Shown here piece by piece: positions 3,486 through 27,862 of a stretch of DNA of 51,576 nt. The position numbers and the translations under genes are program-made. The notes below the pieces were generated by a model that saw only the letters and a list, made by a program, of their open reading frames with translations, was not told the DNA's origin and searched no databases. Origin of the DNA: Candidatus Thermoplasmatota archaeon (lineage in GTDB: Archaea > Thermoplasmatota > SW-10-69-26 > JACQPN01 > JAJPHT01); assembly GCA_035540375.1 (NCBI GenBank), contig DATLGO010000080.1, forward strand, positions 1 through 51,576, in the 5' to 3' direction. Numbering within the stretch: the first letter of the stretch is position 1; every line of letters begins with the position of its first letter.

Positions 3486-4073
3486 ATGAACGCGCGAAAC
3501 CCCCTCGCGAAGCGCCTCGGAAACGTGACCGCCCTCCTCGCCCTGCTCGCGGCTGCGGGCACCGGGCAGGCCATGTACATCGAGACACCGCTCCTCATCG
3601 ACGCGCCCCACCGCGTCGACGTCGGCGACGTCATCGACATCACGATCATGCCCGCGAACGACACGCATCGCGCCGCCTTCGCGGGGCGCGTCGTGAGGAT
3701 CGTCGCCGTCGACTTCGAGACGAACACGCTCACCGTCATCGTTGAAGCGCTGACGCTCGACGCGTCCGCGAGCGCGAAGTTCCAGTGGACGGTGCCCGCC
3801 GAGCGCGACGCGCAGAATCTCGAGATCCGCGTCCTCGCCGCGAAGGAGACGGTCGCCTTCAAGCACGTCGTCGTCGGCGACGCGGAGGAGATGGCCTTCG
3901 CCCTCGGCAAGGGCAACCTCGAGTCGCAATCCGGCCCCGCCGGGGACAAGACGGCCGACCGCCCGGTCGACGAGCGGCCCGCGGCCACGCCCGGGGCGGG
4001 CCTCGTGGTGGCCCTCGCGGCCGGGCTCGTCGCCGCCGTCGCCGTCGCCGCCGCGACCGTGCGCCGCAGGTAG
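3486..4073 (+). CDS. Exported, C-terminally anchored surface protein (paralog 1)
   Basis: A 195-residue protein with an N-terminal hydrophobic signal (about residues 13-30), a beta-rich exported domain starting MYIETPLLIDAP, a Pro/Asp-rich linker, and a C-terminal tail of TPGAG followed by about 20 hydrophobic residues and RRR. This tripartite tail resembles archaeal sorting signals of the PGF-CTERM type, with Ala in place of Phe. The next gene is a paralog: both begin the mature domain with (I)YM-TPL-I and carry a VGD-I-ITV--ND block. ATG at 3486 is preferred; an in-frame GTG lies 9 bp upstream. Function unknown; an Ig-like fold is an inference. Confidence 0.75.
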   Translation: MNARNPLAKRLGNVTALLALLAAAGTGQAMYIETPLLIDAPHRVDVGDVIDITIMPANDTHRAAFAGRVVRIVAVDFETNTLTVIVEALTLDASASAKFQWTVPAERDAQNLEIRVLAAKETVAFKHVVVGDAEEMAFALGKGNLESQSGPAGDKTADRPVDERPAATPGAGLVVALAAGLVAAVAVAAATVRRR

Positions 4074-4086
4074 AGTGCCTCCAACT

Positions 4087-4114
4087 CCGGGCGCCCGGGC
4101 GACCGGGCGCCCGG
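4087..4114 (+). terminator. GC-rich hairpin after paralog 1
   Basis: CCGGGCGCCCGG at 4087-4098 and again at 4103-4114, separated by gcga, forms a perfect 12-bp stem with a 4-base loop, 13 bp after the stop at 4073. No T tract follows, so it may act as an RNA 3'-end structure rather than a classical terminator. Confidence 0.5.
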
Positions 4115-4156
4115 TCGTCTGGAGGGTGGGCGCGCGCCCAACCTGGAGCCAAATCC

Positions 4157-4163
4157 CTTATTC
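4157..4163 (+). promoter_or_regulatory. TATA-like element before paralog 2
   Basis: The AT-rich run CTTATTC lies 25 bp (centre to start) before the ATG at 4185 in a GC-rich intergenic region. Spacing fits a leaderless archaeal transcript. Confidence 0.45.
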
Positions 4164-4184
4164 TTCGACGCCCTCCCGGATCGC

Positions 4185-4757
4185 ATGAAGTTCCGAGCCC
4201 TGGCCCTCGCGGCCATCGCGACCGCGCTCTTCGCCGCCCCGGCGGCGCAGGCCATCTACATGGTGACCCCCCTCACGATCCAGGCCGACGAGGGGACCGC
4301 GAACGTCGGCGACGCCGTGCCCATCACGGTGACCGCCTACAACGACTCGACGCAGGCCGACTGGGCCGGCAAGACCATCGCCGTCCGCCTCTTCGTGGTC
4401 GAGACCGAGGAGGAACACCTCGTTCTCGAGTCCCTCGCGCTCGACGAGAAGGCGGCCGCCGCGTTCACGTGGGACGTCCCCGCGTACGCCGACGACAAGA
4501 ACGTCGTCCTCCTCCTCAAGAGCGACACGAACGAGACGCTCGCGCGGCGCGACTTCGCGATCGGGGACGCCGAGCCCATCTACCGCCTGATGGCGGAAAG
4601 CGGGCCCGGCAACGAGAAGGTCTCCCGCGACGACAGCGCGCTCGACACGGGCGCCCCGCCCGCCTCGCCCTCGCGCACGCCTGGCCCCGCGGCCCTCGCG
4701 CTCGTCGGCGCGGGCCTCGCGGCGGCGCTCGGCCTCGCGCTCGCGCGCCGCCGGTAG
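4185..4757 (+). CDS. Exported, C-terminally anchored surface protein (paralog 2)
   Basis: A 190-residue paralog of the preceding gene. Signal peptide about residues 1-22 (ending AAPAAQA), mature domain beginning IYMVTPLTIQA, a VGDAVPITVTAYNDS strand block, and a C-terminal TPGPA motif, about 18 hydrophobic residues and ARRR. The two proteins share domain order and tail design but are diverged. It has its own TATA-like element and start, and a strong hairpin separates it from paralog 1, so the two are probably separate transcripts. Role at the cell surface is inferred; no enzymatic motif is seen. Confidence 0.75.
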   Translation: MKFRALALAAIATALFAAPAAQAIYMVTPLTIQADEGTANVGDAVPITVTAYNDSTQADWAGKTIAVRLFVVETEEEHLVLESLALDEKAAAAFTWDVPAYADDKNVVLLLKSDTNETLARRDFAIGDAEPIYRLMAESGPGNEKVSRDDSALDTGAPPASPSRTPGPAALALVGAGLAAALGLALARRR

Positions 4758-4763
4758 GCGCGA

Positions 4764-5741
4764 TCAATGGGCGGCTCGCATGACGAGCCGCCCGCCCTCC
4801 TCGTCGAACCGGGATCCATAGGCGCGGGACCGCCGGTCGAGCGCGCGGCGGGTCGCCTCCGCGTCCTCGCCGGGCGCGAGGTCGACCGCCGCGCGTCGCG
4901 GGTCGATGAGAACGGGGGTGAGCCTCAACGCGCGCGCTTCGCCGTGACCGAGGTCCACCTCGTAGAGGAAAGAACGGTCGTTGCGCAGCCGTGGGTCCAC
5001 CCGATAATCGTCCACGAAATCCCCCGTGTCGTAAAGGATGAGCGAGCGGCGTCGCCGCTCGACGCCCTGGATGACGTGGGCGCTCGTCCCCCAGAAGACG
5101 GCCGCCCCCGCGTCCACGACGGATCGCGCGAAGGTTTCGAACGCGCGCGTCGGTCGCGTCCTCATGTTCGGGCCCCAGTGCGCGGCCACGACCAGCGCGT
5201 CGCATGCCCGGTGGGCGCGGGCCACGCGCGCAAGCAGCGAACCGTGGGCCCGCGACCCGGGTTCGATCGGACACCACGCGACGCCGGGACGCGAGGGCCC
5301 CGCGGCCCAACCGGGCTCGTTGTCGGTGAAGGCGAGGAGACCGACCCGCATGCCGCGGGATTCCACGAATGCGGGCGTCCAGGCTTCATCCGCGTCGCGA
5401 CCCGCGCCCGCGCGCGCGATCCCCGCGGCGTCGAGCCGCTCGAGCATGTCCACGAACGCTTCCGGTCCGTAGTCGAAAACGTGGTTGTTCGCGAGCGTCA
5501 CCGCGTCGATTGCGGCCGCGCGCAGCGCGGCGATCGCCTCGGGGGGCGCCCGGAAGTTGAAGGTCTTATCGACCGGGGCGCCCCGGTTCGAGACGACGCA
5601 TTCGAGGTTCACGAAGCGCAGATCGGCGGCGAGGAGCGCCGGAAGCGTCCCGCCCCAGACGTGCTCCGCGCCGGCCTCCCTCAGCCGTTCCCCGACATGG
5701 CGACCGAGCATGACGTCACCCGCAAGCGCGACCCTGGGCAT
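4764..5741 (-). CDS. CapA family protein (metallophosphatase fold)
   Basis: A 325-residue protein of the CapA/PGA_cap family. Diagnostic motifs in order are GDVMLGR (residues 8-14), FVNLE, TLANNHVFDYG, VAAHWGPN and GTSAHVIQGVE, matching the metal-binding loops of a calcineurin-like fold. The family is named from poly-gamma-glutamate capsule synthesis, but archaeal members occur without other capsule genes, and none are seen here. No signal peptide or membrane helix is obvious. It lies 49 bp downstream of, and on the same strand as, the M29 aminopeptidase gene, so the two are likely co-transcribed. Biochemical substrate unknown. Confidence 0.85.
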   Translation of the reverse strand: MPRVALAGDVMLGRHVGERLREAGAEHVWGGTLPALLAADLRFVNLECVVSNRGAPVDKTFNFRAPPEAIAALRAAAIDAVTLANNHVFDYGPEAFVDMLERLDAAGIARAGAGRDADEAWTPAFVESRGMRVGLLAFTDNEPGWAAGPSRPGVAWCPIEPGSRAHGSLLARVARAHRACDALVVAAHWGPNMRTRPTRAFETFARSVVDAGAAVFWGTSAHVIQGVERRRRSLILYDTGDFVDDYRVDPRLRNDRSFLYEVDLGHGEARALRLTPVLIDPRRAAVDLAPGEDAEATRRALDRRSRAYGSRFDEEGGRLVMRAAH

Positions 5742-15382: not shown

Positions 15383-18300
15383 ATGGAGAGGCAGGCACGC
15401 GCTGCGGTGAGCGGGAGCTATCGAACGAAGGTCGCCTCGTGGGGAAGGGCGATCGCGGTGGCGCTCGTGGCGATTCTCGTGACGCCGACGGTGTTGGCGG
15501 GGATCGACGTGACGCGACACGAGACCCCGACATCCGTGCTCGAGGCTTCCGGCCTTCCTGAAGTCGCCTTCGAGAAGCTACGGGAGGCCCTCCCCGAAAC
15601 GCGCGGCCCCATCCTCGGGAGCCCTGTCGCCGAGGCGCTCGCCCCGCTCCTTGCCGGCATCGAAGACGAACGCCTCCGCGACGTTGTCCTCGGCCACCTC
15701 GGGCGCGGCGCCCGGGATGCCTTCGAGGAGGGCACGCGGCGGATCGAGACGCGCCGCTCGGACCCCTCCGTGGGGGGCCTCTTCGTCATCCCTTCCGGCG
15801 AAGCCGAAACCGTGCTGTCGGGAACGGTCTACATCGACGAGGACTGGGTCGTCCAATCCCCGCTCCGGTTCGAGAACGCCGACGTCGTCTTCCGCACCGG
15901 AAACGGCAAGCACATGATCCAAACGGATCCCGGCATCTCGCTCACGATCCTCGATTCGACGGTGCGGCAGGTGGACGGGCGACGCGAACTCTATGGCCTC
16001 ATCGTGGCGAACGGCCCGCTCGTGATCGAGCGCTCGACCGTGAGCGAGATCATGGTGACCGCCGTTGCCCGCGCGGGATTCCTGGGTGCAACGAGCCGGA
16101 TCGTGGACTCCAGGTTCGACAACGCCGTCACCGCGCTCACGCTTTCGCAAAACGCGCTCGTCGACCGGACCATTTTCACGCGCAGCTTCGAAGGGCTCCT
16201 CGTCGAAGGCACCGTGGTCGGCTCCGGCGTGCCCAAGGTCTGGCGGAGCGCCTTCGAAATGAATGAAAAAGGAATCGTGGTTTCCGCGGACGCGGGCGGT
16301 CAATTTGGAGCCCTCCGGATGAGCGCCAACGCGATCGGAGTCGAATGCAAATCGAGCGGCGAGCAGGACGCGAGCCTGCCTGGATATGAGATCGACCCGG
16401 CGCGCGTCAACGATTCGAACATCGCCGAGAACTACGGCGACGCCGTGAGCGGGTCGAACGGCATCTCGATCACAACGCCCTACGGCGAGCTCGTGGTCGC
16501 CGACAGTCGCTGCATCTACGACGGGAATTACTACGGCGGCGCCGGTCTCGCCGCGGATTCCACCTTCAAGAGCGACGGCGACACGATGACGAACACGCGC
16601 GACACCCCGAACGCCTTGCCCGGGACGCCCGCGCTTCCCTGGCCGATCCACCTCATCACGAGCACGACAACCTGGTCGAACAGTCAGCCACCGCCGACCC
16701 TTTCGGGCCCTGTGGTCGTGAAATATCCCGGCGCGCTCACCACCAGCAATCTGCAGATGGACCCACGCGGCTTCACGATCGGCGCCAAGAAGAACGGCGC
16801 GATCGAGGTCAAGAACACGGTCTTCAACGGCCGAACCAGCCTGTTCGTCCGCAACGACGGCGACAAGATCGAAAACGTGGACCTCACCCAGGAAGTTGTC
16901 TTGAACGGGGTCTGGTCGCACCGCGCCAATTCGGTCATCAAGAACCTCAATGTTCTCGCAGGCGCGCCCAACGGTTACGGAGTGTTCTTCTGGACCGCGC
17001 TCTTCAAGGGCGATTCGGCCTACGTCCGCACGGTGGATGGCGGCGTCTTCAAGAAGGCCGTCGGCGGCGTTCGATCCCAGCTCGACTCGCCGACGATCAA
17101 GAACGCCCGGTTCGAGGACACGGCCTATCCGGTGATCACGTTCCTTTCGACGCCCGAGGTGTCCGACAACGACATCGTCCGTCCGATCCTCGCGTTCACC
17201 ACGGTTCTGACGTCGAACCCGAAATACATCAACAACGACGCGGTCGGCGTTTCCGCGAAACTCATCCCGGGGCTCTCGCTTCCCGCCAAACCCGAGATCG
17301 AGGAGACGGACGCCTCCAAGTTCATCATGTCGGCGCTCGACAACAATCCGACCGTGATCGGCAATTCGGCAACGGACATGGATTCCGGCGTGATCGCCGC
17401 GCTCGGCGTCGGAACGGTCACGATTTCGGACAACGACTTCGTCCGCGTGCGCTCAGGCGTCATGTCGGTGCTCGCGAAGGTCGCAAGCGACCGCAACGTC
17501 TATGATCGCGGGATGTACGGGTATTGGGGACTGCTGAACCCGGCCGGGATCACGTTCACCTCGGACGTGTTCACGAACCAGGTCTTCGGCATCGCGTCAT
17601 GGGACCTTGGCGGACCCTCGATCACGTCCTCCTTGTTCGCGTTCAATTACATCGGACTTTCCGTCTCGAGCCTCGCGCTCGCGAACCCGCCTCCGCCGCA
17701 TTCGACGTCGATCACGAACTCCAACTTCATCCACAACTTCGGAGCCGGCGCGGTCATGTGGAACTTCATGGGCAGCGCAATGACGGCGACGTGCACCGGT
17801 TGCTGGAAGGAAACCGACGAATCCATGGAGATCTCCGCGACGAGCACCTATCGCGCGTCGAGCCTCGGACCCAACCCCGAGGTCCCCACGCCGTCGTGGT
17901 GGTCGAGCCGCGTCATCACGTCCTCGGGAACCACGACGCTGAGCGGCACCGTCAACGGCCCCGTCGTCGCGCGGACGGGAGGGAAGATCCAGGTCAAGGA
18001 CACGACGCTCGACATGAACGGCTTCGCGATCGGCGCCAAAGGCTCGGGGACCACCGCGAGCCCGACGGGCATCCTGGAAATCGTCCGCTCGGACATCGTG
18101 AACGGCGCCGTCATCGCGTCCAACAGCACCTCCGCCACGATCGAGCTCAACCGATTCGAGCACTTCAGGCGCGGCGTGGCGGTCGCGACCTTCGGGAACC
18201 CTGCGACGATCCGATGCAACAGCTTCGAGAACATCATGTCCCCCGCGTCGTTCCTCAAGGGAATGCCCGGGAAGGTCTTGACCTTCGAGCGCAACCTCGT

Positions 18301-20713
18301 GCGGGGCGCGACCTCGTTCTCGATCGGGCAGGGGCGATACCTTCCGGATTATCGGGAAGACGCCGTCCTGACGGGAAACGCCTTCATCAACATCCCGAAC
18401 CAGATTACCCGCCTCGGCAAGGGCTCCTTGACCATGACGGGGAATGCGTTCCTGGATACGGGCGCGGTCCGGGATTTCATGAGCGACCGGACGAACAAGG
18501 CCCCCAGCGCCGACTTTTCCGGCAATTACTGGAATCATCCTGATGGGCCCCGCGTGACCCGCTACCACGGGAAGTCCCTTCAGGAGGTCCTCCACGCCGG
18601 ACCCGGAACCCGCCTCAACCTGGGCGACGACAATTCGACGCCGCTTTCGACTTGGCAACCGTTCCTCTCGACGCTCCCATCGCCCGCCCCATGCGTCGAT
18701 TTCCGGTTCACCGCGGGCCCCCTCACCGAGCTCGACACGATGGTCTTCACGGACCGCTCGTTCGACCCGATGGGAAACACCCTCACGAGAACCTGGAACT
18801 TCGGGGACGGGACGATCCTGACGGTCGATGAGCCCACCGTCACGCACCGCTACGCGGACGGCGGAACCTACACCGTCACGCTCACGGCGACGACGAGCCA
18901 GGGCTCCACCGCGAGCGCCTCGAAATCGGTCCTGATCCAGCACGTGAATCCCGTGGCAGACTTCGCGGCGAGTGTCGTCGACGAGATCACCCCCGTCCAA
19001 TTCACCGACGCGAGCACACACCCGAACCCCGCAGACGCGCCGCCTTCGGGGTGGTCCTATGCGTGGTCGTTCAACAACGGCGAAGGCACCTCGACGGCGC
19101 GCCATCCGACCTTCAGGTTTGCGGACGGCGGCTCCAAGACTGCTCGCCTCACGGTGACAGACAATGATGGACGCACCCACACGAAGCAGATCACGATCGT
19201 GGTTCCGCACGTTGCGCCGATCGCGAACTTCGCTTTCACGCCGGCAGACGAAACGGAATCGGTGACGTTCACGGACACCAGTACCCACCCGAACGCCCCG
19301 ACCGACGGCATCGTCTCGCGATCCTGGTCATGCAGCGACGGCAAAAAGGCGACAGCGGCGTCGTTTTCGCATCGCTTCGCCGACGGCGGAACGTACGAGT
19401 GCTCGCTGACGGTCACGGACAACGATGGAAAGGCTTCGACCGTGCTGCGCTCCGTCCCTATCGGACACGTCGCGCCTGCGGCGAACTTCATCGTGTCCGG
19501 TTCGACGGAACTCGATACGTTCGCCTTCACCGACACGAGCACCCACCCGAACCCAGCGGACGCCCCACCTTCCGGATGGACATGGACGTGGGACTTCGGC
19601 GACGGGGGCCACGGATCGGCGCGGAACCCGAACCACCGGTTCGCGGACGGCGGAACCGCGCGCGTGGCGCTCACCGTCACCGACAATGATGGCCGGACGT
19701 CGACGTTCGCGCGAGACGTACCCGTCGCGCACGTGAGTCCCGTCGCAGCGATCGGCGTCGACACCTCGAAACTCGAGCCCGCAACGCCGATCGCGTTCAC
19801 GGACGCTTCGACGCACCCGAATTCACCGGGCGACGCCCTCGTTTCCTGGGCGTGGTCGTTCGGCGATGGCGCGACGAGCGCGGAAGCGAACCCCAGCCAC
19901 GTGTACGCGGCGATCGGGACTTACCTCGTCACCCTCACCGTGACGGACGACGATGGTCTGACCTCCACCGCGACCCGAAGCCTGCGCGTCGGAAACCACG
20001 CTCCGGTCGCGGCCTTCGATTGGACGCCCGCCATTCCCAACGCGAAGGAGGTCGTGGCCTTCCGTGACAACAGCTCCGACGCCGACGGCTCGGTCGCAAA
20101 CTGGTTCTGGACGTTCGGCGACGGCCGCTCTTCCTCGGAGCGGTCTCCTGAAGTGACTTACACCTCGCCGGGCGTCCGATCGGTGTGCTTGAGGGTCTGG
20201 GACAATGATGGAAAGTCATCCGCGCCGACCTGCCGCAGCGTCATCATCGACGATCGCCTCGAAGGGACGCTCCGGTTCGACCGGCCGCTCCGCACGGATC
20301 GCGAGATCAACGCGGAGCTCACCCTTCGCTGGGACGACGGGCGCCCCGTCCCGAACGTGTACGTCCGCTACGAAAAGTGGCTTCGGACAAATTACGTTCC
20401 GCCCCACAATCCTCCGCCGACGGACACGTGCGGAGGCGAGTCATGCCCCTGGAGCACCAGCATGGACGCCGCGCCCTATTACCGGTTGTACGAAGGCTAC
20501 ACCGACCCGGACGGCAGGCTCTACATCTACTATTACGACAATGAACCGCGTCTCGGAGCCTGGCAGGTCACCCCGAGCAACGTCCCGGGCAATCACGAGT
20601 ACCGCCTCTTCGCCTGGACGAGGGACGGCTACCTCGGCAACACGGAACATCTCTGGATCACGGGTAGCTACTTCGTCGAGGAGGACCGGATAACGGCCGT
20701 CTACGGGACCTGA
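15383..20713 (+). CDS. Giant surface protein B: beta-helix plus 6 PKD domains
   Basis: A 1776-residue paralog of protein A. Signal peptide about residues 22-40 (AIAVALVAILVTPTVLA). Residues about 140-1090 are a right-handed beta-helix homologous to A; shared landmarks include SEI/SEV strands after VIERSTV and NSNIAENYGDAVSGSNGI versus NSNLMENYGDAIQGVNGI. Residues about 1104-1622 are six PKD repeats; units 1, 2, 5 and 6 correspond to A units 1, 2, 9 and 10, while the middle block of A (units 3-8) is reduced to two. Residues about 1623-1776 are the shared C-terminal domain with a CGGESC pair and closing ITGSYFVEED. No membrane anchor. It probably arose by tandem duplication followed by repeat gain or loss. 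Ligand or substrate unknown. Confidence 0.9.
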   Translation: MERQARAAVSGSYRTKVASWGRAIAVALVAILVTPTVLAGIDVTRHETPTSVLEASGLPEVAFEKLREALPETRGPILGSPVAEALAPLLAGIEDERLRDVVLGHLGRGARDAFEEGTRRIETRRSDPSVGGLFVIPSGEAETVLSGTVYIDEDWVVQSPLRFENADVVFRTGNGKHMIQTDPGISLTILDSTVRQVDGRRELYGLIVANGPLVIERSTVSEIMVTAVARAGFLGATSRIVDSRFDNAVTALTLSQNALVDRTIFTRSFEGLLVEGTVVGSGVPKVWRSAFEMNEKGIVVSADAGGQFGALRMSANAIGVECKSSGEQDASLPGYEIDPARVNDSNIAENYGDAVSGSNGISITTPYGELVVADSRCIYDGNYYGGAGLAADSTFKSDGDTMTNTRDTPNALPGTPALPWPIHLITSTTTWSNSQPPPTLSGPVVVKYPGALTTSNLQMDPRGFTIGAKKNGAIEVKNTVFNGRTSLFVRNDGDKIENVDLTQEVVLNGVWSHRANSVIKNLNVLAGAPNGYGVFFWTALFKGDSAYVRTVDGGVFKKAVGGVRSQLDSPTIKNARFEDTAYPVITFLSTPEVSDNDIVRPILAFTTVLTSNPKYINNDAVGVSAKLIPGLSLPAKPEIEETDASKFIMSALDNNPTVIGNSATDMDSGVIAALGVGTVTISDNDFVRVRSGVMSVLAKVASDRNVYDRGMYGYWGLLNPAGITFTSDVFTNQVFGIASWDLGGPSITSSLFAFNYIGLSVSSLALANPPPPHSTSITNSNFIHNFGAGAVMWNFMGSAMTATCTGCWKETDESMEISATSTYRASSLGPNPEVPTPSWWSSRVITSSGTTTLSGTVNGPVVARTGGKIQVKDTTLDMNGFAIGAKGSGTTASPTGILEIVRSDIVNGAVIASNSTSATIELNRFEHFRRGVAVATFGNPATIRCNSFENIMSPASFLKGMPGKVLTFERNLVRGATSFSIGQGRYLPDYREDAVLTGNAFINIPNQITRLGKGSLTMTGNAFLDTGAVRDFMSDRTNKAPSADFSGNYWNHPDGPRVTRYHGKSLQEVLHAGPGTRLNLGDDNSTPLSTWQPFLSTLPSPAPCVDFRFTAGPLTELDTMVFTDRSFDPMGNTLTRTWNFGDGTILTVDEPTVTHRYADGGTYTVTLTATTSQGSTASASKSVLIQHVNPVADFAASVVDEITPVQFTDASTHPNPADAPPSGWSYAWSFNNGEGTSTARHPTFRFADGGSKTARLTVTDNDGRTHTKQITIVVPHVAPIANFAFTPADETESVTFTDTSTHPNAPTDGIVSRSWSCSDGKKATAASFSHRFADGGTYECSLTVTDNDGKASTVLRSVPIGHVAPAANFIVSGSTELDTFAFTDTSTHPNPADAPPSGWTWTWDFGDGGHGSARNPNHRFADGGTARVALTVTDNDGRTSTFARDVPVAHVSPVAAIGVDTSKLEPATPIAFTDASTHPNSPGDALVSWAWSFGDGATSAEANPSHVYAAIGTYLVTLTVTDDDGLTSTATRSLRVGNHAPVAAFDWTPAIPNAKEVVAFRDNSSDADGSVANWFWTFGDGRSSSERSPEVTYTSPGVRSVCLRVWDNDGKSSAPTCRSVIIDDRLEGTLRFDRPLRTDREINAELTLRWDDGRPVPNVYVRYEKWLRTNYVPPHNPPPTDTCGGESCPWSTSMDAAPYYRLYEGYTDPDGRLYIYYYDNEPRLGAWQVTPSNVPGNHEYRLFAWTRDGYLGNTEHLWITGSYFVEEDRITAVYGT
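18694..20250 (+). repeat. Six-unit PKD repeat array in protein B
   Basis: Six coding repeats of about 258 bp. Only unit 3 has the Cys-containing core (SWSCSDG with YECSL); units 1, 2, 4 and 5 are Cys-free, and unit 6 carries a different Cys pair (SVCLRVWDNDG and PTCRS) that is also present in A unit 10. Confidence 0.85.
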
Positions 20714-21982: not shown

Positions 21983-22726
21983 ATGCAAGGCGCGATGCCC
22001 CGCGCCAGCGATCCGGAGAGCCGACGTTTCGCCGTCCTCATCGACGGCGACAACGCCCAGCCGCGCCTCCTCGCCGCGATGATGGAGGAGGTCGGCCGAC
22101 ACGGGTCGCCCACGGTCCGCAGGATCTACGGGGACTGGGCCTCGGGCCGCCTCAACGGGTGGAAGGACGACCTCCACTACCACGCCTTCCAGGCGGTCCA
22201 GCAGCACTCGTTCGCCCGCGGCAAGAACTCCACGGACGGTCGCCTCATCATCGAGGCGATGGACCTCCTGCACACGGCGCCCATCGACGCCTTCTGCATC
22301 ATCTCCTCCGATTCCGACTACGCGGGTCTTGCGAAGCGGCTCCGGGAATCCGGCAAGTTCGTGCTCGGCATCGGCGAGCGGAAGACGCCCGATCCCTTCG
22401 TGCGGGCCTGCGACCAATTCACGTTCACGGACCTGCTCGTGAAGCAGGGCCGGAAGGAGCGGGAAAAAGACGGCGGCGACGGCAAGAAGCGGCCCCGGGA
22501 CCGGGCCCTGCGCGAACTGCTCATCGAGGGCGCGGAGGCGATGGAGCGCGAGGACGGCTACGCGAACCTGGGCCGCATCGCCGAGTTCCTCCAGAAGAAG
22601 GACCCCGGCTTCGACCCTCGGTCGTACGGCCGCAGCAAGGTGAGCCAGCTCTTCCGCGAGTTCCCGGAAACCTTCGAGTTCGACCCGGACGATCCCAACT
22701 ACGTCCGCATCCTTCCCGAGGAGTGA
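21983..22726 (+). CDS. NYN nuclease domain plus LOTUS/OST-HTH protein
   Basis: A 247-residue protein. Residues about 15-150 are an NYN (PIN-like) domain: [12 protein letters not shown] holds the first acidic residues, and [17 protein letters not shown] the second acidic cluster, as in LabA-like proteins. A charged linker (about 158-172) leads to an OST-HTH/LOTUS winged-helix domain (about 180-235; [15 protein letters not shown] and [10 protein letters not shown]). Such proteins are thought to be RNA-targeting, with the NYN domain as metal-dependent ribonuclease and LOTUS binding RNA. Start ATG at 21983; a second in-frame ATG lies 12 bp later. The SDR gene begins 1 bp after its stop, indicating translation coupling. 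Confidence 0.85.
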
Positions 22727-23512: not shown

Positions 23513-24454
23513 GTGTCCGAGGGCAGTCCCTGGATGGGCCACGTCAAGCTCGCCGCGAACGGCGCGAAGCCCGCCTCCGGGGAGGTCGTGCTCTCGGCCC
23601 GCGGCCTCGTGAAGCGCTACGGCGCGTTCGCCGCGCTCGACGGCCTCGACCTCGACGTCCGCCGCGGCGAGATCTTTGGCGTCATCGGGCCGAACGGCGC
23701 CGGCAAGACGACCACGCTCAAGATCCTCTCCGGGCTCCTCACGCGCACCTCAGGCGAGGCGCGCGTCCTCGGCTTCGACGTTTCCGACCCCGCCATGAAG
23801 GCGCGCCTGGGGTACCTTCCCGAGGAGTCGCCCCTCTACGACGACATGACGCCGCGCACGTATCTCGCGCTCTTCGCGGAGCTCTTCGCGGTTCCCAAGA
23901 AGGAGGCGAAGGCGCGGATCGAATCGCTGCTCGACGACCTCGCGCTCGACCACCGCGACCGCAAGCTCGGCGACATGTCCAAGGGCATGCGCCGCAAGGT
24001 CGCGATCGCGCGGAGCCTCGTGAACGATCCGGACCTCCTCATCTATGACGAGCCCGCCTCGGGCCTCGACCCCGTCGCGAGCGCGCACGTGCTCGAGATC
24101 GTGCAGCGCGTGCGCGACCGCGGCAAGACCGTCATCTTCTCCGCGCACAACCTCTACCACGTCGAGCGCATCTGCGACCGCATCGTGCTCCTTCACAAGG
24201 GCAAGCCCGCGCTCTCGGGCACGATGAAGGAGATCCGCGCGCGCGTCGGCGGCACGGAGTACGCGGTGCGTCTCTCCGTGGAGGTCCCGGGTTCCACGCC
24301 CGCGGAGGACGGCGGATACGAGGCGCGCGTGAAGAGCTTCGACGAGGTGCGCCCGCTCGAGGAGGCCGCGCGCGCCGCGGGCGGCCGGCTCCTCGACGTG
24401 AAGAACGTGGACGTCCCCCTGGAGGAGATCTTCCTCCGCACGACGCGCGGGTGA
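23513..24454 (+). CDS. ABC transporter ATP-binding protein (NatA/CcmA type)
   Basis: A 313-residue ATPase. Walker A GPNGAGKTT (about residues 62-70), Q-loop region GYLPEES, signature MSKGMRRK in place of LSGGQ, Walker B LLIYDEPASGLDP and a switch His in FSAHNL. The C-terminal 90 residues are an extra regulatory-type domain ending VDVPLEEIFLRTTRG, as in ABC-2 exporter ATPases. The start GTG at 23513 is chosen; ATG at 23534 is an alternative. It is followed on the same strand by two permease genes, so it powers an ABC-2 type export or membrane-remodelling complex. Cargo unknown. Confidence 0.88.
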   Translation: MSEGSPWMGHVKLAANGAKPASGEVVLSARGLVKRYGAFAALDGLDLDVRRGEIFGVIGPNGAGKTTTLKILSGLLTRTSGEARVLGFDVSDPAMKARLGYLPEESPLYDDMTPRTYLALFAELFAVPKKEAKARIESLLDDLALDHRDRKLGDMSKGMRRKVAIARSLVNDPDLLIYDEPASGLDPVASAHVLEIVQRVRDRGKTVIFSAHNLYHVERICDRIVLLHKGKPALSGTMKEIRARVGGTEYAVRLSVEVPGSTPAEDGGYEARVKSFDEVRPLEEAARAAGGRLLDVKNVDVPLEEIFLRTTRG

Positions 24455-24461
24455 AGCGCGC

Positions 24462-26255
24462 GTGGCGAACGGCTCCCTGCGACGCGTCCTCATCATCGCG
24501 AAGGGCGAGCTCAAGCGCGGCCGCGGCCAGATGGACCGCAAGAGCCTCGTCGCGATGGCGGCCGTCGCGCTCGTGGGCCTCCTGCTTGCGCCCGCCCTCA
24601 CGTCGCAGACGCTCGACTTCGACCATGGCCTTTACCGCGCGGCGGTCGAACCCAGCCATCCGATCCTCCCCGCCCTGCTTTCCGCGCCCGCGTTCACCGT
24701 GACCGTCACCTCCGACGCGGTCGGCGCGCTTTCGCGCGGCGAGGCGGATCTCGTGGTCGTGGGCAAGCACATCGGAGCCGCGCGCGGCGACAAGGGCCAG
24801 GCCGCGCTCGCGGCGCTCAAGGACGCGACGCGCTCGTACACGTTCCGCCTCATGGCCCTCGAGGAGGACGAGGATGCCGCGTTCCCCGTCCGGGTGACGC
24901 TGCGCTACGAGGAGGCGAAGCCCGCGCCCCGGACGGCAGGCGGCGCGCCCACGCCGATGCCCGCGCCCTCGACGCCGACCCAGGAGCCCGCAGGCGGCGT
25001 CTCGGGCGGCGGTTCCGGCGGCGCAAGCGGCGGCGAGGCGCCGCCCGTCGCGCCCGGCACCGCGCCCCCCACCGGCTTCAGCCTGCTCCCGCCCGCCGAG
25101 CGCACCGACGTGCCGTCGAGCCTCATGCCGCCCTTCCCGTTCCGGAGCCTCATCCTCTCCTACTTCTTCCTCATCCCGCTCAATTTCGTCGTGCAGTCGT
25201 ACGCCTCGAGCATGATCGCCGAGCGCCTCGGCCGCCGCGGCGAAGCCATGCTCGCGTCGCCCGCGCGGCCGTGGGAGATTGTCGCCGGAAAGACGCTCCC
25301 GTACCTCGCCGCGATGATCGCGGTCGCCGCGCTCGTCGCGTGGGCCGTGGGCGGGACGGTCGCCTCCGTCGCGGCCATCCTCCCGATCGCCCTCGCGTTC
25401 CTCGGCTTCGAGTTCATGGCCGCGCTCATGGCGCGGTCCTTCCGCGAGCTCACCTTCCTCACGGTGTTCGTGTCGGTCATCCTCACGATCTACTGCTTCC
25501 TGCCCGCCGTGTTCACCGACATCCACCCGGTCTCGCTCATCTCGCCGATCACGCTCGTCGTCTTCGACCTCAAGGGCACGGTCGCGACGCCGATCGAGTA
25601 CCTCTACGCGACCGCGCCCCTCATGCTCGTGAGCGCGGTGCTCTTCATCCTCGGCACGGCGCTCTGGCGCGAGGAGGACCTCTTCCACCAGAAGCCCGTC
25701 CCGTCGAAGGCGCTCGACGCGATCGCGCGCCAGGTCTCGCGCCCGCTCTCGGGCGCGAAGCTCGCGCTCCTCCTCATCCCCTTCGTCTTCGCGGCGGAGC
25801 TGCTCCTCGTCGCGTTCCTCTTCGCGTGGCCCGTCGGCCCGCCCCTCCCGCTCGTCCTCCTCATGGTGTCGCTCGTCGAGGAGACCTTCAAGGGCGTGCC
25901 GAGCTACGCCGCCTGGAGAGCGAACGCGCTCGGATCAAACAAGCGCGTGATCCTCTTCGGCGCGCTCACGGGCGCCGGCTTCTTCCTCGCCGAGAAGATC
26001 GTGATCCTCGCGAGCCTCGTGGGGCTCATGGACGTGAACGCCGGGAGCGCCGTCTTCCTCGACACGCCGCTCCCGTACCACCCCGCGATCCTGTTCATGC
26101 TGCCGCTCGTCCTCCACGTCGCGACCGCGACGATGTCGGCCTATGGCGCGACGAAGGGGAAGCGCGGCTTCCTTATCGGCATGGGCGCCGCGATCGCGGT
26201 GCACACGATCTACAACGCGTCGATGATCGCGCTTGCGCGGGGGTCGATCGCGTGA
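24462..26255 (+). CDS. ABC-2 permease fused to PrsW-type intramembrane protease
   Basis: A 597-residue membrane protein with two modules. Residues 1-420 resemble an ABC-2 permease: one N-terminal helix (about 30-48), an external domain, a Gly/Pro-rich linker (about 150-205) and five or six helices including the RRGEAMLASPARPWEIVAGK coupling-type segment. Residues about 425-597 form a PrsW-like (M82) module: EETFK at 473-477, GAGFFLAEK ending at 512, HVATATMSAYG from His552, and HTIYN at 581-585. These match the EExxK, G-F-E, H-x3-T-x3-G and HxxxN motifs of PrsW and related glutamic intramembrane proteases. Start is GTG at 24462, 7 bp after the ATPase stop. Cleavage target unknown; regulated release of a membrane protein linked to transport is an inference. 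Confidence 0.85.
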   Translation: MANGSLRRVLIIAKGELKRGRGQMDRKSLVAMAAVALVGLLLAPALTSQTLDFDHGLYRAAVEPSHPILPALLSAPAFTVTVTSDAVGALSRGEADLVVVGKHIGAARGDKGQAALAALKDATRSYTFRLMALEEDEDAAFPVRVTLRYEEAKPAPRTAGGAPTPMPAPSTPTQEPAGGVSGGGSGGASGGEAPPVAPGTAPPTGFSLLPPAERTDVPSSLMPPFPFRSLILSYFFLIPLNFVVQSYASSMIAERLGRRGEAMLASPARPWEIVAGKTLPYLAAMIAVAALVAWAVGGTVASVAAILPIALAFLGFEFMAALMARSFRELTFLTVFVSVILTIYCFLPAVFTDIHPVSLISPITLVVFDLKGTVATPIEYLYATAPLMLVSAVLFILGTALWREEDLFHQKPVPSKALDAIARQVSRPLSGAKLALLLIPFVFAAELLLVAFLFAWPVGPPLPLVLLMVSLVEETFKGVPSYAAWRANALGSNKRVILFGALTGAGFFLAEKIVILASLVGLMDVNAGSAVFLDTPLPYHPAILFMLPLVLHVATATMSAYGATKGKRGFLIGMGAAIAVHTIYNASMIALARGSIA

Positions 26256-27379
26256 GAGCCCGCTGGATCCTGGCCCGGAAGGAATTCACGTCCATCTTCA
26301 CGGAGAAGACGATCCTCCTCGCGGTCGTCATCCAGGTGTTCGTGGCGGGATTCTCGGGCTTCCTCGTCGTGGGCCTCGCGAGCCTCGTCGACCCCGACGC
26401 GATTCCCGCCGCGGGCGAAACGCGCCTCGCGCTCGTGGGCGACAATGGGCTCGCGGACGTCCTCGAATCCTACGGGATGAGGATCCGCAACGTGAACGCG
26501 ACCCTGGCCCACGAACTCTTCCGCGAGGGCCACGTCGAGGGCGTCATCGAGGTCGGAAACGCCTCGTGGGAAGGCTCCGACCCCATCCGCCTTCGGGTGA
26601 CGCTCCCCGACGGCACGCTCGAAAGCACGATGACGCTCGTGAAGGTGAAACGCGCGCTCGAGGACTACGAGCGCGCCGTGCGCGACGCGCGCGGCGACCG
26701 CCTCGTCGCGGAGCCGCTCTACGTCGAGGTGCCCGCGGGCGGCGGATCCTACGCGTTCGTGTACTCGCTCCTCGTGCCGCTCCTCGTTTTCCTCCCCATC
26801 GTCCTCTCCGGGGCGCTCGCCGCGGACAGCCTCACGGAGGAGGTCCACCGCGGCACCCTCCCGCTCCTCCTCACGACGCCCGCGACCGCGGCCGACGTCG
26901 TCGAAGGCAAGCTCCTCGCGAACGCCGCGCTCGCGCCGCTCCTCACCGCCGCGTGGCTCGGCCTCCTCAGCCTCAACAATCTGGGGCTCTCGTTCGCGGA
27001 CGCGGCGTGGATCACGCTCTTCGCCTTCGTGCTCGCGGTCGTCATGGGCCTTCTCGCGTGCCTCATCGCGATCCTCACGCGCGACCGCAACAAGGCGCAC
27101 ATGCTCTACGCGCTCGCCCTCATCGCGCTCATGGCGGGCTCCATGGCGCTCCCCATGTCGCCCGTGAACGTGGTCGCGCGCCTCGCGGCGGGGAGCGCCG
27201 ACGCCGCGGTCCACGCGGAGGTCGCCGCCCTCGCGCTTCTCGCCTTCGCCGGGCTCTTCGCGCTCGACCGCATCCTCAAGACGCGCGCCGCCGAGGTGCT
27301 GAGCTGGCGGTGGGAGGGCAAGCCGCGCGTCCGGCGTCGGCGCCGCGCGGAATCGGTCGAGCCCGCTTCGAACGAGTGA
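26252..27379 (+). CDS. ABC-2 type permease
   Basis: A 375-residue membrane protein: one N-terminal helix (about 20-45), an exported domain of about 140 residues (from TRLALVGDN to YVEVPAGGG), then five C-terminal helices with the LTEEVHRGTLPLLLTTPATAADVVEGK segment typical of ABC-2 permeases (NatB-like). The start is GTG at 26252, overlapping the previous stop in a GTGA; the long upstream open frame is a shadow of the preceding gene. It should pair with the fused permease and the ATPase as a heterodimeric transporter. Basic Arg-rich tail at the end (RVRRRRR). Confidence 0.87.
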   Translation: MRARWILARKEFTSIFTEKTILLAVVIQVFVAGFSGFLVVGLASLVDPDAIPAAGETRLALVGDNGLADVLESYGMRIRNVNATLAHELFREGHVEGVIEVGNASWEGSDPIRLRVTLPDGTLESTMTLVKVKRALEDYERAVRDARGDRLVAEPLYVEVPAGGGSYAFVYSLLVPLLVFLPIVLSGALAADSLTEEVHRGTLPLLLTTPATAADVVEGKLLANAALAPLLTAAWLGLLSLNNLGLSFADAAWITLFAFVLAVVMGLLACLIAILTRDRNKAHMLYALALIALMAGSMALPMSPVNVVARLAAGSADAAVHAEVAALALLAFAGLFALDRILKTRAAEVLSWRWEGKPRVRRRRRAESVEPASNE

Positions 27380-27392
27380 CAGCGCAAAAGCT

Positions 27393-27839
27393 ATGACCGG
27401 TCCGACCCCCGGAGACCGGGTGAAGCGCGTACGCCTCCACGGCGTCATCCTCCTCGCGGCCCTCCTCCTTGCAGGCTGCACCTCCGCGACGGACCTCCCG
27501 GGACAACGCCGCGTTCCGATCACCGCCGTCTGGGCCGAGAACGTGCCCCTCGACCTCGGGCCCGGCGAAGTCGGAAACGTGTCGTTCCGCATCTTCGAGC
27601 CGGCGACGGCGGCTTGGAACTGGTCCGCCGACGGCCCCGTCGAGGGGTGCCTCCTCCATGCGAACGACCTCGCGGCATGGACGCGCGGCGACGTCGCGGG
27701 CGAGGCGTGCCGGAGGTCGCGCGAGGCGAACGGGACGTTCGAACTTCTCCGCGGCGACTACGTCCTGGCGCTGCGCTGCGACGCCGCTCAACCGTGCGCG
27801 CTCCACGTGAGCCTCCAGGCGACGCCGCACGAAGCGTGA
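27393..27839 (+). CDS. Small lipoprotein
   Basis: A 148-residue protein with a signal peptide and lipobox LLLAGC (lipidated Cys about residue 29), so it is probably anchored to the outer face of the membrane. The mature part is short, with NVSFRIFEP and four further cysteines (two in EGCLL and EACRR, two in LRCDAAQPCAL), which could form two disulfides. It starts 13 bp after the permease stop and may be part of the same transcript as an accessory to the ABC system. No family recognised. Confidence 0.75.
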   Translation: MTGPTPGDRVKRVRLHGVILLAALLLAGCTSATDLPGQRRVPITAVWAENVPLDLGPGEVGNVSFRIFEPATAAWNWSADGPVEGCLLHANDLAAWTRGDVAGEACRRSREANGTFELLRGDYVLALRCDAAQPCALHVSLQATPHEA

Positions 27840-27852
27840 CCCCCGCCGCCCC

Positions 27853-27862
27853 AAATATATAT
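27853..27862 (+). promoter_or_regulatory. Strong TATA box for aIF2-beta
   Basis: AAATATATAT, the longest AT run near a gene start in this region. Predicted transcription start about 27883, leaving a leader of about 19 nt before the ATG at 27902. Confidence 0.75.

Follow-up and report, generated by a model that had tools for sequence, protein, structure and literature searches.

A gene of a Candidatus Thermoplasmatota archaeon encodes, in one reading frame, an ABC-2 permease fused to a PrsW-type intramembrane protease. The gene lies in the window, by which we mean the whole 51,576-nucleotide stretch of DNA analysed here, and the features of its locus are listed in Table 1. At the level of sequence, the one-frame fusion, the conserved operon and the intact motifs are established. 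We propose, with moderate confidence, that the gene belongs to a heterodimeric ABC-2 exporter in which permease A carries the protease, such that a substrate would be processed and exported, or cleared, in one complex.

Table 1. Features of the fusion gene and of its operon, in coordinates of the window
Feature	Position	Strand	Basis
ABC ATPase, DrrA/NatA-like	23534..24454	+	PF00005, E 3e-30; first in every locus examined
Fusion gene, ABC-2 permease and PrsW-type intramembrane protease, 597 aa	24462..26255	+	translation and homologs
ABC-2 permease half, residues 1-425	24462..25736	+	PF12698, PF12679 (ortholog), hhalign
PrsW-type domain, residues 431-597; five TM helices, four forming the motif-bearing core	25752..26252	+	hhalign, AF2 model
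Motif 1, EETFK (E473, E474, K477)	25878..25892	+	E, E and K invariant in nine members
Motif 2, E511-K512 (within FFLAEK, 507-512)	25992..25997	+	invariant in nine members
Motif 3, H552, PrsW-specific histidine	26115..26117	+	invariant in nine members
Motif 4, HTIYN, 581-585 (H581, Y584, N585)	26202..26216	+	H, Y and N invariant in nine members
Second ABC-2 permease	26252..27379	+	PF12679, E 4e-16, over cut-off; third in every locus examined
Small predicted lipoprotein, co-directional	27393..27839	+	lipobox LLLAGC; outside the conserved module

Layout of the locus

Translation of the window gave a fusion frame of 597 codons with no internal stop. The original prediction, which had read this gene as an ABC-2 permease joined to a PrsW-type protease, holds: the frame is single, the motifs are at the residues it named and the homologs carry both halves in one frame. 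The start of the upstream ATPase is uncertain (GTG at 23513 or ATG at 23534), and its match to TIGR01188 has an E-value of 7e-67, below that model's cut-off. Seven nucleotides separate the end of the ATPase from the fusion, and the start of the second permease (GTGA, 26252) overlaps the fusion's stop codon. The gene for the lipobox protein begins 13 nt past the second permease. The sole run of at least seven A/T between 21.5 and 28.2 kb is AAATATATAT at 27853, just before the gene that comes next, whose product has IF2B/IF5 and TRAM domains. Thus, the operon probably ends at 27839. There is no AT-rich promoter-like run between 21.5 and 27.85 kb and hence none inside the fusion gene, the interior of which probably lacks a promoter-like element.

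The ATPase, the second permease and the lipoprotein had all been predicted to be operon partners of the fusion. The first two are conserved beside it in nine organisms, whereas no equivalent of the lipoprotein occurs at the other loci. Elsewhere in the window's phylum, the second permease of the module is not followed by a lipobox. The lipoprotein has only two weak relatives, the first in its own genome and the second in G001, and neither is a neighbour of this transporter. We therefore rejected the lipoprotein as a conserved partner or cargo.

An SDR gene precedes the operon. Directly upstream of the SDR gene, at 21983-22726, the window encodes a protein with an NYN nuclease and an OST-HTH/LOTUS domain. 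Further away, at 15383-20713, is a predicted surface protein of 1776 aa with a beta-helix region and six PKD domains.

Distribution and conservation of the module

A protein search of relatives yielded full-length matches at 48-56% identity. When a five-member fusion profile was run over 390 genomes of the window's phylum, the fusion was found in eight genomes from six families, besides one degraded copy. Within the window's order, four of five genomes carry it, and the fifth, which lacks it, is 76% complete. Coverage beyond this phylum came from a plasmid collection, in which tblastn found a relative with 98% coverage. This relative is carried by a Haladaptatus salinisoli plasmid; the species is a haloarchaeon that has been cultured. 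The Haladaptatus copy is one CDS, annotated as 'ABC transporter permease subunit', and is flanked by genes for an ABC ATPase and an ABC permease, with overlapping ends. It is possible that the module spread horizontally between archaeal phyla.

A survey of the neighbourhoods of similar fusions had been suggested as a check, and its outcome agrees with the prediction: in nine organisms of two phyla, the ATPase gene is directly followed by the fusion and then by the second permease, all on one strand. The flanks of the eight loci of the window's phylum (a few kb) share no other genes. The original prediction had suggested that such a transporter could release cargo or a signalling protein on export; no conserved gene for a cargo lies next to the module. 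Pairwise distances of the ATPase, the permease half, the protease half and the second permease correlate with r of 0.75-0.92, as expected of parts inherited together, although kinship of the organisms alone gives such correlations too. In one genome (G213) the fusion's N-terminal part is read in a different frame, probably because of an assembly break; there too, the permease half runs into the protease half without a change of frame.

The degraded copy (L101, G005:C42:49000-58500, at about 3645-5630) retains the ATPase, the N-terminal part of the fusion and the C-terminal part of the second permease. Its middle, including the whole protease domain, is missing, and it contains a stop and frame changes. 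Either genuine decay of the locus or a faulty assembly could account for this. The haloarchaeal module (L115), on a plasmid of 539,871 bp (NZ_CP085330.1), has as neighbours a DUF4112 gene and one whose annotation reads 20S proteasome subunit A/B.

The permease half

The permease half begins with TM1, followed by a large outer domain with a Pro/Gly-rich linker and then five TM helices. The window protein matched PF12698 (ABC2_membrane_3) with an E-value of 0.003, below the cut-off, and the Haladaptatus ortholog passed PF12679 (ABC2_membrane_2) with 30.9 bits against a cut-off of 27.2. In hhalign, the permease half scored 38.4 against the second permease, whereas the column-shuffled maximum was 22.3. 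The assignment to the ABC-2 permeases also draws on the cognate ATPase gene, which is directly upstream in all loci examined. The locus resembles two-permease ABC-2 exporters of the NatAB/DrrAB type (PF12679/PF12698) in its DrrA/NatA-type ATPase, its two ABC-2 permeases and the large outer domain after TM1. It differs from them in that one permease bears an intramembrane protease.

The protease half

Each of the seven PrsW motif positions (E473, E474, K477, E511, H552, H581 and N585) is invariant in all nine members, which share about 40% identity. K512 and Y584 are likewise invariant, and every charged or histidine residue that is invariant in the domain is a motif residue. In an eight-member alignment, 22 of the 167 C-terminal positions were invariant; the chance that all seven motif positions fall among these is about 3e-7, a rough figure that treats positions as independent. 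In published models of PrsW, helix 3 bears EExxK, helix 5 an extra histidine that type II CAAX proteases lack, and helix 6 HxxxD (PMC4602095). The fusion has EExxK, the extra histidine and HxxxN, with N for D. The protease is apparently complete, with its catalytic residues intact, and is predicted to be active.

All of the fusions have E-K as motif 2, whereas 27 of 30 stand-alone PrsW loci from the phylum have E-N. Thus, the original prediction was correct that the asparagine of E-N is a lysine here, and this lysine is a property of the whole fusion family. The change to E-K could alter catalysis. In the remaining three stand-alone PrsW-like proteins (L029, L032 and L033), motif 2 reads E-T or E-A; departures from E-N after the glutamate are thus not limited to the fusions. 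A stand-alone PrsW with E-N is also found in genome G000 (C102:2270-2794), and the fusion is therefore not that genome's only PrsW.

We compared the C-terminal domain with stand-alone PrsW proteins and CPBP proteins of the phylum, gathered by PF13367 and PF02517 respectively. In hhalign, the fusion C-terminal profile matched PrsW motif on motif with scores of 53.5-55.2 (E 5e-8 to 9e-8), whereas 60 column-shuffles scored at most 19.0 and reversed profiles 14-15. The score against CPBP was 23-24 (24.1 with a nine-member profile). When the fusion profile was run against every open frame at the PrsW and CPBP loci, mainly PF13367 loci were retrieved, the best at 28.8 bits, and reversed decoys reached at most 5.6 bits. 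When the nine motif columns were masked, the profile match to PrsW vanished. This result indicates that the homology signal rests on the motifs, their order, their spacing and their placement in the membrane. Motif spacing counted on the sequence is 33/39/28 in the fusion, close to the 31-33/29-35/31-54 seen in PrsW, barring two outliers. The Pfam PrsW model (PF13367) exceeded its cut-off in one ortholog only (G003, 24.3 against 23.5 bits) and was listed by hmmscan for none of the fusion members; by Pfam's own PrsW model the protease half is borderline. Motifs, spacing, profile-profile score and the retrieval of PrsW proteins together support a PrsW-type domain, and the profile comparison that had been proposed came out for PrsW (55, E 5e-8) and not for CPBP (24).

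Structure prediction had also been proposed. Models were built from a shallow alignment of P0001, L002 and L003 only. The AF2 model of the domain has a pTM of 0.74, five helices and core blocks with pLDDT of about 86-97. Given a cytosolic linker ahead of the domain, a topology read from helices and loop charges, the motif residues would lie near mid-membrane or toward the outer side. Foldseek returned no significant match for the whole model (mean pLDDT 54) or for the domain model, and a sequence search against solved structures returned no relative.

In sum, the domain is like the PrsW family (PF13367, MEROPS M82, including B. subtilis PrsW) in its EExxK, motif-2 glutamate, extra histidine and HxxxN, which have a similar order and spacing on the core helices. 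It is unlike the family in being joined to an ABC-2 permease, in having five helices rather than about eight and in having E-K rather than E-N in motif 2.

Discussion

Two kinds of known fusion resemble the one described here. The NCBIfam family NF041647 (ABC transporter permease subunit/CPBP intramembrane protease) also has an N-terminal ABC-2 permease and a C-terminal protease of the same superfamily, but its protease is CPBP, whereas ours is PrsW-type. The window fusion did not match NF041647 (cut-off 435 bits). PrsW-toxin fusions have been described in polymorphic toxin systems, where the PrsW domain is likewise proposed to be a built-in processing protease in an export context (PMC3482391). 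Those proteins have PrsW N-terminal to the toxin domain and include no ABC transporter, whereas the window fusion has no toxin. In the non-subscription literature that we searched, mostly by titles and abstracts, no account of PrsW joined to an ABC permease came to light. Thus, a permease-CPBP fusion is known already; what appears to be new is a PrsW-type protease in such a fusion, kept in two archaeal groups. The occurrence of ABC-2 permeases with PrsW as well as with CPBP attached points to more than one origin of the pairing and to a functional meaning.

We considered processing during export or clearance first, a sensing or immunity device second and a non-catalytic scaffold third. In the second of these, the transporter would sense or expel a membrane-active peptide, and the PrsW domain would degrade the peptide or cleave a membrane-bound regulator. 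B. subtilis PrsW, which cleaves RsiW in the antimicrobial-peptide response, ties the founder of the family to such peptides (PMC4602095). CAAX/CPBP proteases such as SilX occur in bacteriocin gene clusters (PMC9298176), and in Haladaptatus the module is on a plasmid. However, the eight loci have no regulator or toxin-immunity gene in common next to the module, the presence of the module in most genomes of the window's order is as for a housekeeping function, and the fusion had no match to the PADLOC defence-system models. We regard a sensing or immunity role as less likely than processing during export or clearance.

It is less probable still that the protease domain is a non-catalytic, structural or substrate-binding part of the transporter, comparable to APH-1. 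APH-1, a distant relative, is a subunit of gamma-secretase. Such a role would fit the replacement of the motif-2 asparagine by lysine in all members, and APH-1 (5a63_C) was among the weak fold matches, none of them significant. In contrast, all other motif positions, including both glutamates, are invariant across two phyla, and a scaffold would be free to lose them.

Two further readings were rejected. Assignment of the domain to CPBP, the sister family (type II CAAX-like), is very improbable: related glutamate and HxxxN motifs are common to both families and the NF041647 model offers a precedent, but the profile score is far below that for PrsW, motif 1 is EExxK instead of the arginine motif of CAAX proteases, the PrsW-specific His552 is present and none of 145 genomes of the phylum exceeded the NF041647 cut-off. 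Hardly credible is a joining of two genes by a sequencing or frame error, or a protease made from an internal start, both of which had been named as outcomes that would undo the prediction; in-frame ATG or GTG codons do occur at 25509-25638 and 25863-25896, but the fusion is in one frame in independent genomes and two phyla, the candidate internal start at M388 falls where the other members of the eight-member alignment have no methionine and no promoter-like AT-rich run lies within the gene.

Based on these results, we favour a model in which the fusion joins processing to export or clearance. In the first part of our model, the two permeases would pair and be driven by an ATPase dimer. The six permease helices of the fusion would lead through a cytosolic linker (about residues 404-427) to the five protease helices, and the attached protease would sit beside the permease in the membrane. 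The active site may be formed by two glutamates, a third glutamate, two histidines and an asparagine in the middle to outer half of the membrane. The second part of our model concerns the substrate. We propose that the protease may cut a membrane-anchored peptide, lipoprotein or single-pass protein from the outer side. The substrate may be captured or extruded by the exporter, so that cleavage and export (or clearance) would occur in one complex.

The final part of our model is more tentative. Intramembrane proteases must bring their substrates into a buried active site, and the route by which they are fed is usually unknown. One possibility, which we hold to be doubtful but worth stating, is that ATP-driven extraction feeds membrane-anchored substrates directly into the covalently attached protease; the module would then be a self-contained archaeal machine for processing or clearing membrane-embedded peptides or lipoproteins. 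A protease built into a transporter would allow the question of substrate feeding to be tested within a single complex. No function is known for the PrsW-like protein of Haloferax volcanii, a model archaeon (PMC9263693). Since the fusion family also occurs in a haloarchaeon that can be cultured, testing by gene deletion and point mutation is practical. If our model is true, one machine may both cut a molecule and export it.
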